Shown here piece after piece: positions 2 through 46,735 of a stretch of 64,000 bases of DNA (position 1 is its first letter; each line of letters begins with the position of its first letter). The DNA lies in contig CALXDJ010000006.1 in the NCBI GenBank assembly GCA_944387035.1, positions 1-64,000 of the forward strand. The letters are read 5' to 3'. Under the pieces are notes generated by a model. The model worked only from the letters and a program-made list of their open reading frames with translations. It made no database searches and was not told the origin of the DNA. The DNA comes from an uncultured Oscillospiraceae bacterium. Its GTDB lineage: Bacteria; Bacillota; Clostridia; Oscillospirales; Oscillospiraceae. The position numbers and the translations under genes were made by a program.

Positions 2-1345
2 TCAGTAGGTGCAGTGGTTGAGCTGTCCCCAGAGGCGCTTGGCACTTTCCAGAATGTGCGCGTTGACAGCTTCCTCGTCAATCTCCGTCAGGACACGGTC
101 CTTCATCAGGATCTTGCCGTTGATCATGGTGGTTTGGCACTGACGGCCGGTCATGCCGAAGAGCATGTGACCGTCAATGTTGGCGTCGGAGAAGGGGGTG
201 AAGGGCTTGTAGTCCATGACGATCACGTCGGCAGCAGCGCCGGGACGGAGTACGCCCAGGGTGGGGAAGCCCGTCCGGGCCGCCATTTTGGCGTTGTTCT
301 TGAAGAGCATGTCCGTCACCTCGCACCAGCCGACGTTGGGCATGCAGGCATTGTGGCGCTGGATGGTGAGGGCCACCTTGATGCTCTCGAGCATGTCGTT
401 GGTGTAGGCGTCCGTGCCAAGTCCCACCAGAATGCCCTTTTTATACAGCTGCAGGATGGGGGAGCAGCCTACGGCATTGCCCATGTTGGACTCGGGATTG
501 TTGACGCACATGGTGTCGGTGGCCTGAATGATGTCCATTTCGGCGGTGTTGACGTGGATGCAGTGGCCCAAAATAGTCTTGGGGCCTAAGATTCCGTGGT
601 CCTGCAGACGCTGCACCGGACGGCGGCCGTAATTCTGGAGGCTGTCGTAGACGTCGTTCATGCCCTCGGAGACGTGGATGTGGTAACCCACCCGGCCGTT
701 GTTGGCCGCAACCATCCGGTCAAAGGTCTTGTCGGAGATGGTGAACAGGGCATGGCCGCCGAACATGGCCTTGAGCATGGGGTCGGGGTTTTTCTCACAG
801 TAGTCGATGAAGTCCTGGTTTTCCTGGACGGACTGGAGGGATTTTTCCTCGCCGTCGCGGTCGCTGACCTCGTAGCAGAGGCAGGCCCGCATGCCGAATT
901 CCTTGGTGACCTCGGCGATTTTCATGAGGGAGCCGGGGATCTCGCAGAAGGAGGCATGGTGGTCAAAGATGGTGGTGACGCCCTGCTTGATGGAGTCAAT
1001 GACCAGCGCCTGGGCGGAGGCCCGGGTAGCCTCTAGATCCAGATGGCGGTCAATGTACCACCACTGGCCGTCCAGCACCTCATAGAAATTGGTGGGGTTG
1101 TAGCCGTTGATGGAAAGACCACGGGCCAGCGCGGAGTAGATATGGGTATGGGCGTTGATCAGGCCCGGCATGATGACGCCGCACCGGGCGTCCACAAATT
1201 CCGCCTGGGGATATTGGGCCTTGAGCTCAGCAGTAGTGCCCACAGCCACAATTTTGCCGCCGTCGGTCACAACGCCGCCGTCAGGGTAATAGCCGGTGCC
1301 GTCAGGGTCCCGGGTGATGAGTTTTCCGTTTGCCAGTAAGATCAT
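2..1345 (-). CDS. ssnA: SsnA-type amidohydrolase / chlorohydrolase
   Basis: A 447-residue metal-dependent hydrolase of the amidohydrolase superfamily, closest to the putative aminohydrolase SsnA. Visible marks are the N-terminal metal motif NAHTHIYS (about residues 64-71), a central HIHVSE, a GHCIHVN segment, and the late metal aspartate in LGTDAYT. The C-terminal PGAAADVIVMDYKPFTP closes the composite beta-sandwich, so the protein is complete; its TGA stop lies at positions 2-4. The ATG is set by an AAGGAGGG site on the minus strand just upstream. In other bacteria ssnA sits among selenium-dependent molybdenum hydroxylase and purine-catabolism genes; the real substrate is unproven. Its leader carries a transcription switch described separately. 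Confidence 0.85.
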   Translation of the reverse strand: MILLANGKLITRDPDGTGYYPDGGVVTDGGKIVAVGTTAELKAQYPQAEFVDARCGVIMPGLINAHTHIYSALARGLSINGYNPTNFYEVLDGQWWYIDRHLDLEATRASAQALVIDSIKQGVTTIFDHHASFCEIPGSLMKIAEVTKEFGMRACLCYEVSDRDGEEKSLQSVQENQDFIDYCEKNPDPMLKAMFGGHALFTISDKTFDRMVAANNGRVGYHIHVSEGMNDVYDSLQNYGRRPVQRLQDHGILGPKTILGHCIHVNTAEMDIIQATDTMCVNNPESNMGNAVGCSPILQLYKKGILVGLGTDAYTNDMLESIKVALTIQRHNACMPNVGWCEVTDMLFKNNAKMAARTGFPTLGVLRPGAAADVIVMDYKPFTPFSDANIDGHMLFGMTGRQCQTTMINGKILMKDRVLTEIDEEAVNAHILESAKRLWGQLNHCTY

Positions 1346-1370
1346 ATAAAACCCTCCTTCGTGTCCTGTT

Positions 1371-1413
1371 AAAAAAGAAAAGGCGCTTCAAACCACCATT
1401 GGTTTGAAACACC
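1371..1413 (-). terminator. Intrinsic terminator inside the ssnA leader
   Basis: On the minus strand a 14-bp stem (arms 1400-1413 and 1382-1395, two G-U pairs, loop 1396-1399) is followed by an 11-nt tract of ten U broken by one C (1371-1381). It lies between the ssnA promoter and the ssnA start codon, so it would stop ssnA transcription early unless an alternative fold prevents it. Confidence 0.85.
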
Positions 1414-1486
1414 CATCAAAAACGGGAATGATAGGTGTCAGCCCGTGCGCGCAGCACTCCGTTGCAGCTATCATTCTTTGCTTGTA
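1371..1486 (-). promoter_or_regulatory. Riboswitch-like leader of ssnA, class unknown
   Basis: Reading the minus strand from the predicted transcription start, a perfect 9-bp stem (1468-1476 with 1426-1434) encloses 33 nt that contain two ACGG words. The 3' arm region 1429-1438 can instead pair over 10 bp (one G-U) with 1409-1418, and that segment overlaps the base of the terminator. The two folds exclude each other: closed stem allows the terminator, the alternative hairpin blocks it. This is the usual layout of a transcription-terminating riboswitch or protein-bound attenuator. I could not match the 33-nt core to a class I know. Confidence 0.6.
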
Positions 1487-1487
1487 C

Positions 1488-1517
1488 TTGTTATTGTATC
1501 GGAAGCCATGCTAAAAT
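1488..1517 (+). promoter_or_regulatory. Promoter of the 1625 lipoprotein gene
   Basis: TTGTTA (1488-1493), 18 bp, TAAAAT (1512-1517) on the plus strand. It overlaps the ssnA promoter on the other strand, so the two could compete. Confidence 0.45.
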
Positions 1518-1521
1518 GCAA
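1493..1521 (-). promoter_or_regulatory. Promoter of ssnA
   Basis: On the minus strand a -35 TTGCAT (1516-1521), a 17-bp spacer and a -10 TACAAT (1493-1498) fit a housekeeping sigma promoter. It would start the ssnA leader near 1486. Confidence 0.6.
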
Positions 1522-1624
1522 GAAGGCAAGCTGAAAAAGTTTTTGCCTGGTTTTGTACAGATTGCCAGGAAACGGCGGAACCTTTTGGGAGATGTTCCGT
1601 CAGAACTGGCAGGAGGTGGGAAAA

Positions 1625-5290: not shown

Positions 5291-5923
5291 TTACTTCGTG
5301 CCGAAGATCCGGTCGCCGGCATCGCCCAGGCCGGGGACAATATAGCCGTGCTCGTTGAGGTGATCGTCCACAGCGCCGCAGAAGATGTCCACATCGGGGT
5401 GGTTCTTCTGGATGAGTTCAATGCCTTCGGGGGCAGCCAGCAGGACCATGAGCTTGATATTGACGCAGCCCCGCTTTTTCATTTCGGAGATCGCGGCATC
5501 CGCACTGCCGCCGGTGGCCAGCATGGGATCAACGATCATGATATCCCGCTCTTCAATGTCCTTGGGCATCTTGCAGAAGTAGACATGGGGCTCCAGGGTT
5601 TCCTCATCCCGGTACATGCCGATGTGGCCGACCCGGGCGCCGGGGACCATCCGCAGCACGCCGTCCACCAGGCCCAAGCCGGCCCGGAGAATGGGAACCA
5701 CAGCGAATTTTTTGCCCTTGAGCGTGGGGGCCACGGTTTTGCAGATGGGAGTCTCCACTTCCTTGGTGGTCAGGGGAAGATCCCGGGTGGCCTCATAGGT
5801 GATGAGCATGCCGATCTCGGAGACAATCTCCCGGAAGTCCTTGACGCTGGTGTTTTTGTCCCGGAGGATCGTCATTTTGTGGGCAACCAGGGGGTGGTCC
5901 ATGATGTGTACTTTTCCGTTCAT
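5291..5923 (-). CDS. upp: Uracil phosphoribosyltransferase
   Basis: A 210-residue cytosolic enzyme that makes UMP from uracil and PRPP (pyrimidine salvage). The PRPP loop is [13 protein letters not shown] (about residues 131-143) and the C-terminal uracil-binding segment is [13 protein letters not shown]. Length is typical of Upp. The ATG follows AAGGAGAA on the minus strand. It lies 44 bp after tsaB in the same direction and may be the last gene of a tsaE-tsaB-upp transcript. Confidence 0.95.
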
Positions 5924-5967
5924 AATCGGTTCTCCTTTATGTGAAAATGATGAAGTCCAGCATAATA

Positions 5968-6654
5968 TCAGAGCTTCAGGCGCTGAGCCTGTGCGGGACG
6001 CAGATAGACGGGCTGAAGATCCTGCGCGCTGACCAGACCGCCGGCGGCAGCCAGATCTTCGGCTTCCAGGGCCACGGAGGCAGCATTTTGCATGATCAGG
6101 TGCGGCGGAGCCAGACGGCAGGAAAGACCTGCGCCAGAGAGATAATCATAGCACAGACGCGCGCCGTCTCCCACTACCGTCTTGGGACGGGAATCCTCCC
6201 GCAGTTCCTGCGCCAGTTCTTCCAGTGCAATGGCCCGGTCCGGCGTCAGACGGGTGAGGTGTCCGTTTTCTGCCAGAAATACCGCGTTGTAAATTTGACT
6301 GCGGCGGGCATCCATGGCGCACAGCACCAACCCGTCGGCAAAGGCCACATTCCGGGCCATGGCTGCCAAAGTGGAGATCCCCACAGCAGGTTTTTCGGCG
6401 GCGAAGGCCAGTCCCTTAGCTGCGGCCACACCGATTCGGATGCCGGTAAAGGAACCGGGACCGGCGGCCACTGCCACGGCGTCGCAGTCAGCCATGGTCA
6501 ATCCGGTGTTGCGGAACAGATGCTCCACAATGGGCATCAATGTACGGCTGTGGGTCAGGCCGGTATCCTGATAGCCGCTGGCCAAAATGCGTCCGTCCTC
6601 CGACAGTGCGGCGGAAACCGCTTTGGCCGAGGTCTCCAGTGCTAGGATTTTCAT
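5968..6654 (-). CDS. tsaB: tRNA threonylcarbamoyladenosine biosynthesis protein TsaB
   Basis: A 228-residue ASKHA-fold protein that dimerises with TsaD in the complex transferring threonylcarbamoyl to A37 of ANN-decoding tRNAs. It begins [17 protein letters not shown], followed by [14 protein letters not shown] and the glycine-rich [14 protein letters not shown], all diagnostic of TsaB. It lacks the TsaD metal-binding histidines, as expected. Its ATG overlaps the TGA of tsaE by 4 bp, so the two are translationally coupled. TsaD is not in the window. Confidence 0.93.
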
Positions 6655-46564: not shown

Positions 46565-46735
46565 ATATGCGTCCGGTAAGTAAGGCTACCGCAGGGATAT
46601 GGATCGATGCCGCAAAGTGATGGAGACATCACGCGATGGTTGAACAGGTTTTGTCGAAAGCAAGGCACTACCTAATGCGATTTCACCGCCCTGCGAAGCT
46701 AAAGCTCGAACGGTGGCATGGGTTTTTGATCAAAC
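46565..46735 (+). promoter_or_regulatory. M-box (ykoK) magnesium riboswitch
   Basis: The leader shows the M-box signatures in order: GGTAAGTAAGGCTACC near the 5' end, GATGGTTGAACAGG in the middle, and GCTAAAGCTC near the 3' end (46699-46708 region). The element lies between a consensus promoter and a terminator, ahead of an MgtE magnesium transporter gene, which is the classical setting. High magnesium is known to stabilise the aptamer and favour termination. Confidence 0.85.

Follow-up and report, generated by a model that had tools for sequence, protein, structure and literature searches.

The window, by which we mean the whole stretch of 64,000 nucleotides analysed here, opens with the gene ssnA on its minus strand, and SsnA begins 84 nt 3' of a conserved RNA motif in a structured leader. 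The features are given below in the direction of transcription, with the evidence for each in brackets.

1516..1521, minus strand: -35-like hexamer TTGCAT, followed by a 17-nt spacer (sequence)
1493..1498, minus strand: -10-like hexamer TACAAT (promoter-like pair comparison across leaders)
1430..1477, minus strand: ssnA RNA, RF03031, model positions 1-48 (64.0 bits against a cut-off of 37.3)
1468..1476, minus strand: P0 5' strand GAAUGAUAG, formerly described as a closing stem and here a proposed anti-aptamer (pairing conservation, energies)
1466..1469, minus strand: P1 5' strand AGCU, partner GGCU at 1443-1440 (paired in 130-131 of 131 leaders)
1458..1465, minus strand: internal loop G-y-A-A-C-G-n-A (motif positions 13-20) opposite G34 (1444), a candidate ligand site (conserved)
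1454..1457, minus strand: P2 5' strand GUGC, partner GCAC at 1448-1445 (C-G to U-A in 12 leaders)
1445..1448, minus strand: P2 3' strand GCAC (leader comparison)
1440..1443, minus strand: P1 3' strand GGCU (leader comparison)
1429..1438, minus strand: antiterminator 5' strand ACACCUAUCA (sequence, leader comparison)
1426..1434, minus strand: P0 3' strand CUAUCAUUC (C43 kept in 76 of 76 leaders behind a variable linker)
1409..1418, minus strand: antiterminator 3' strand UGAUGGGUGU, overlapping the terminator 5' arm (sequence, leader comparison)
1381..1414, minus strand: intrinsic terminator hairpin, 15 bp with a 4-nt loop (terminator scan; covariation)
1371..1380, minus strand: U-tract UUUCUUUUUU (terminator scan)
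2..1345, minus strand: ssnA, 447 aa, aminohydrolase of reductive uric-acid degradation (NF005540 at 615.8 bits and TIGR03314 at 543.7 bits, both above cut-off)

The best promoter-like pair lies at the same offset from the motif, about 20 nt 5' of it, in about half of 132 leaders. In the window, the TTGCAT-17-TACAAT pair (1521-1493) is too weak for the automated promoter scan and stayed below its detection; the transcript should begin at about 1486, immediately 5' of the motif.

A preliminary description of this leader had reported a 9-bp closing stem around a 33-nt core and an alternative 10-bp hairpin that overlaps both this stem and the base of a terminator, and all of these are present in the sequence. 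The stem GAAUGAUAG (1476-1468)/CUAUCAUUC (1434-1426) encloses exactly 33 nt. The hairpin ACACCUAUCA (1438-1429)/UGAUGGGUGU (1418-1409), which includes one G-U pair, overlaps the 3' strand of the stem by 6 nt, and the last 6 nt of its own 3' strand fall in the 5' arm of the terminator. The terminator (1414-1381, followed by UUUCUUUUUU) was also found where it had been described, with 15 bp by scan instead of 14. The leader folds at -40.9 kcal/mol, compared with -29.1 +/- 3.3 kcal/mol for 200 dinucleotide shuffles (z = -3.6), none of which is as stable. Its lowest-energy fold contains the 9-bp stem, which is called P0 hereafter, and its most stable element by far is the terminator.

In a scan of the whole window with Rfam 15, the family RF03031 ("ssnA RNA") was matched at 1477-1430, over all 48 positions of the model and above the curated cut-off. 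With the P1/P2 core, its G-y-AACG-n-A loop and the site upstream of ssnA, the RNA is certainly a member of RF03031, an orphan cis-regulatory family already catalogued and reportedly due to Weinberg et al. 2017. The preliminary description had proposed a new riboswitch or attenuator, and had suggested an Rfam search in which a known class would count against novelty. The search returned a known class over its full length, so that a new riboswitch class is rejected; what is new is the functional hypothesis. The family model and the window RNA agree in the core, the downstream gene and the full-length match, whereas the 48-position model stops inside the P0 3' strand and pairs no P0, antiterminator or terminator. 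Apart from the original description, which lay outside the search, no paper discussing ssnA RNA or assigning it a ligand was found in the literature search.

The RNA is present as a single copy in the genome of the window. It was found in 110 of 400 genomes of the same family (103 above cut-off), while 16 of 394 genomes in the order sample and 2 of 398 in the phylum sample carry it above cut-off, and the named carriers include Oscillibacter, Flavonifractor and Evtepia. The exact pattern gave no match in viral contigs and none in a phage collection, and a viral or phage origin of the motif was rejected on these grounds. The sole other Rfam match above cut-off in the window is an M-box (magnesium) riboswitch (RF00380, 99 bits) at 46565-46725 on the plus strand.

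The core was compared among 131 distinct leaders, with the weak matches L083, L164, L069 and L070 excluded; here and below, leader counts refer to distinct sequences, not to independent events. The core is formed by P1 (positions 9-12 with 35-38) and P2 (21-24 with 30-33), which flank an 8x1 internal loop. It is nearly invariant (GCUG-n-AA[C/G]G-n-AGUG...CACGGGCU), with zero variation at G13, A15, A16, G18, A20 and G34, and P1 can form in every leader, bar one 9-38 mismatch. Pair 9-38 is exchanged among A-U, G-U and G-C, single compensatory or wobble changes are found at 10-37 and 11-36, and P2 shows a compensatory change from C-G to U-A in 12 leaders. With so little variation in the core, few sequences bear on the covariation of P1, and its support in this alignment is thin in number. 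The internal loop G-y-A-A-C-G-n-A opposite G34 is likely to be the ligand site. The switch structure is conserved across relatives, and the comparison finds in the 5' leader the conserved aptamer-like domain that a riboswitch should have.

Three further observations concern the core. In 18 of 131 leaders (L002-L006, L011, L068 and others) AAGG replaces AACG in the internal loop, possibly as a specificity variant. The 3' side of the P2 loop (1450-1449 in the window, minus strand) ends in C in 131 of 131 leaders and in GC in 130, despite differences in the length and sequence of the loop; this is a hint of a long-range contact, possibly with the internal loop. In L080 (about 1331-1600, plus strand), two complete modules of ssnA RNA and terminator stand in series before one ssnA; P1 of the first module is rewired (ACU/GGUU for GCU/GGCU), which gives independent support for P1.

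The core is followed by one of three expression platforms, whose counts were taken from an energy-based terminator search. Platform A comprises the window and 75 others (76 window-like leaders). P0 pairs 10-43, 8-45, 7-46 and 6-47 are kept in 76 of 76 of them and 9-44 (A9-U44) in 75 of 76, with exchanges among A-U, G-U and G-C at 7-46 and between A-U and G-C at 4-49, a pair that is open in most of the remaining window-like leaders. For 72 of these leaders, 90% of the cells of the 9-bp stem are paired, whereas slid registers reach 55% at most. The terminator pairs in 91.5% of cells, and in 12 of its 13 pairs both sides have changed. Although the linker between the core and position 43 differs from leader to leader in both length and sequence, C43 itself is constant and U44 nearly so; the simplest reason is that they pair with G10 and A9.

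An antiterminator of 5-10 bp is found in 74 of 75 leaders, overlapping the P0 3' strand by 3-8 nt, and in 72 leaders it is joined to a terminator that overlaps its 3' strand by 5-8 nt, while a helix of antiterminator strength arises in 16% of shuffles. The sequences differ (CACCUAUCA/UGAUGGGUG in window-like leaders, CACUC/GAGUG in most others) and the topology is the same. The overlapping helices are kept across leaders, in agreement with the mutually exclusive folds and the attenuation switch predicted in the preliminary description, and by sequence and energy the expression platform excludes another fold, as is expected of a riboswitch. Transcription attenuation is very likely.

G10 and A9 are also bases of P1, so complete P0 and complete P1 are mutually exclusive, and P0 in full costs P1 two of its four pairs. 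In energies that omit tertiary contacts and ligand, P1 with the antiterminator lies 2.1 +/- 1.7 kcal/mol above P0 before the terminator is made. A shortened P0 coexisting with P1 was rejected, being 6.4 kcal/mol worse than P1 with the antiterminator. P0 is absent in 55 of 131 leaders. It is unlikely to close the aptamer, as the term "closing stem" had implied, given the many relatives without it and the competition with P1 for G10 and A9, and is better read as a ligand-free, P1-breaking anti-aptamer.

A switching scheme can be proposed from these folds. Without ligand, the leader 5' end GAAUGAUAG would pair with CUAUCAUUC to form P0, which would break P1, capture the antiterminator 5' strand and leave the terminator free, and transcription would stop. 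A ligand on the P1/P2 core would keep G10 and A9 in P1, and P0 would yield; the antiterminator CACCUAUCA/UGAUGGGUG could then form, the terminator would lose the base of its 5' arm and polymerase would read into ssnA. Since P1 with the antiterminator is only about 2 kcal/mol from P0, a ligand that holds P1 could tip the leader from OFF (P0 and terminator) to ON. The ON direction is likely, and the kinetics of switching are inferred.

Among the 55 leaders without P0, 24 (about 20 without the borderline ones) belong to platform C, in which the 5' arm of the minimum-energy terminator lies inside the core. For example, the terminator is AGUGCUUCG.../CGAGGCGCU in L078 and GCGCACGGGCC.../GGCCCGUGCGC in L155, and in L144, L157 and L161 the terminator GCUGUAAC/GGUUACGGC uses the other side of the core. 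Core and terminator cannot coexist in platform C, so that stabilisation of the core should turn the gene ON. In platform B (30 leaders), the antiterminator begins right after P1 and the terminator lies further 3', with no overlap with the core; this arrangement is compatible with an ON switch through stacking of P1 on the antiterminator, and is no proof of it. All three platforms fit the single logic of an ON switch.

An ordinary terminator or attenuator, with helices that are alternatives only on paper, would agree with the dominance of the terminator in stability. Such a leader hardly needs an invariant core in 131 sequences, a correctly placed antiterminator in nearly all leaders against the 16% of shuffles, or rewired platforms that share one logic, and we regard this explanation as very improbable. 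The opposite direction of control deserves more weight, though we think it unlikely. In an OFF switch, P0 would close the ligand-bound aptamer and be stabilised by the ligand, an end product, so that the antiterminator is lost and transcription stops. In its favour, the window leader folds into P0 at its energy minimum, 76 leaders conserve P0, and xanthine-I (NMT1), a validated riboswitch, works as an OFF switch (PMC7373994). However, an OFF switch built on P0 is at odds with the leaders that lack this stem and with its cost to P1, the exclusion between core and terminator in about 20 leaders fits only ON, and ssnA is reported among uric-acid-induced genes (PMC12990295).

Of the 126 leaders with sufficient sequence, 120 have SsnA as their first gene, and YgfK comes next in 72 of 74; ssnA-ygfK is the commonest unit downstream of the RNA. 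In the family sample, 105 of 130 SsnA-bearing genomes have the RNA (overlap counted by hand). At the thresholds used, the other 25 lack it, so the pathway can do without ssnA RNA. Five genomes have the RNA and no full SsnA match: in three the contigs end inside or near the gene, and in two the matches are very weak. One genome (G352) contains three copies, of which the first precedes ssnA-ygfK-DUF6198-Se-XDH-ygeX-ygeY-ygeW-arcC, the second nfnAB and the third a dihydropyrimidinase (HyuA). The genome of the window encodes SsnA, YgfK, Se-XDH, HyuA, YgeX and YgeY. Its ssnA extends as far as base 2 of the contig that holds the window, where it ends, and its YgfK starts some 100 nt away from the end of contig C48 (9,232 bases; L172); an assembly gap has therefore probably divided the usual ssnA-ygfK operon.

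Two side observations were made in these operons. A DUF6198/YczE-like membrane protein, possibly a purine transporter, is encoded between ygfK and XDH in 7 of the 56 leaders whose downstream sequence is long (L122 at 5518-6174, plus strand, and similar loci). In G324, a one-contig genome, the Se-dependent XDH at C1:2881327-2883866 is divided into two consecutive frames (profile positions 2-532 and 529-848), through a frameshift or a sequencing error.

These targets belong to one pathway. XdhD reduces uric acid to yanthine, which YgfK and SsnA then jointly turn into ureidomethyl-hydantoin (UMH), and HyuA, whose substrate is UMH, completes the reductive route with YgeW, YgeY and YgeX (Li et al. 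2025, PMC12507026); the same paper names the regulation of these genes as poorly understood. According to a commentary, ssnA, ygfK, ygeW, ygeX and ygeY are induced by uric acid in distant gut bacteria (PMC12990295). The regulon suggests an oxidised purine of this pathway as the ligand, and the purine-related metabolite of the preliminary description is a plausible candidate. On balance, we favour as the more probable reading that this member of RF03031 senses a metabolite and switches transcription of the ssnA-ygfK uric-acid operon ON, with an oxidised purine as its most likely ligand. The identity of the ligand is an informed guess from the regulon: urate or yanthine (2,8-dioxopurine) would come first, followed by xanthine or a ring-opened product.

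An ON riboswitch for a ligand without a purine ring is rather unlikely; such a ligand could be a signal connected with molybdenum, selenium or redox, or one of the late intermediates (UMH, DUPA, albizziin). The selenium-dependent molybdenum hydroxylase in the operons, NfnAB as a target in one genus and the RNA before hyuA, with UMH as substrate of its product, would suit such a signal. On the other side, the uric-acid route is the common denominator of SsnA, YgfK, XDH, HyuA, YgeX, YgeY and YgeW, and the commonest unit, ssnA-ygfK, handles yanthine directly.

The ssnA RNA was catalogued while the reaction of SsnA was unknown, and the work of 2025 on reductive uric-acid degradation supplies the chemistry. 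The orphan RNA thereby gains a short list of candidate ligands, namely urate, yanthine, xanthine and UMH. If an oxidised purine binds, this would explain how gut Oscillospiraceae switch on urate consumption, which bears on host uric acid, and a small sensor of natural origin for urate or yanthine would become available. More tentatively, ssnA RNA might form a class of riboswitches that respond to uric acid or yanthine, a dedicated sensor that induces uric-acid breakdown in gut anaerobes; if this is true, one genome drives the whole reductive pathway with three copies.

No purine-family Rfam match was found at the locus, either in the whole-window scan or at 1250-1700 up to E = 10. The NMT1 model, which we take to be among the Rfam models scanned, gave no match up to E = 10 at 1250-1700 either. 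Purine-sensing RNAs with such targets have precedents, and the ssnA RNA locus matches neither xanthine-I nor xanthine-II. The xanthine-I (NMT1) riboswitch, which senses xanthine and uric acid, is likewise a small aptamer in which two stems meet at a conserved, asymmetric junction (PMC7373994, PMC8266621), and the residues G-n-A-G-C-G that follow P1 in its structure paper may be compared, as a lead only, with G-y-A-A-C-G in ssnA RNA. In contrast to the switch proposed here, it is a translational OFF switch in Proteobacteria, and its class has no Rfam match at this locus.

The core could also be the site of an RNA-binding antitermination protein, as in the RAT hairpins of LicT/SacY or in ANTAR sites. 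A hairpin of about 30 nt with an asymmetric internal loop, mutually exclusive with an overlapping terminator, is the RAT design too (compare PMC3369936). However, RAT needs a protein with the CAT RNA-binding domain, and PF03123 was found neither in the genome of the window nor in 13 of 14 other RNA-bearing genomes, that is, it is missing from 14 of 15, while control genomes were positive; nor does any recurring regulator gene adjoin the motif among the loci examined. A LicT/SacY-type antiterminator is thus largely excluded, and a protein-binding antiterminator in general is quite improbable. The proposed metabolite-sensing ON switch may also be compared with the xanthine-II riboswitch, a variant of the guanine riboswitch (PMC9295807). 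Its aptamer is a three-stem junction, whereas the ssnA RNA core has two stems, unlike the three-way junction of guanine and xanthine-II riboswitches, and lacks a purine-family match; in both, the terminator can overlap the aptamer, the predicted direction is ON, and the genes that follow serve purine degradation, such as allB downstream of xanthine-II.
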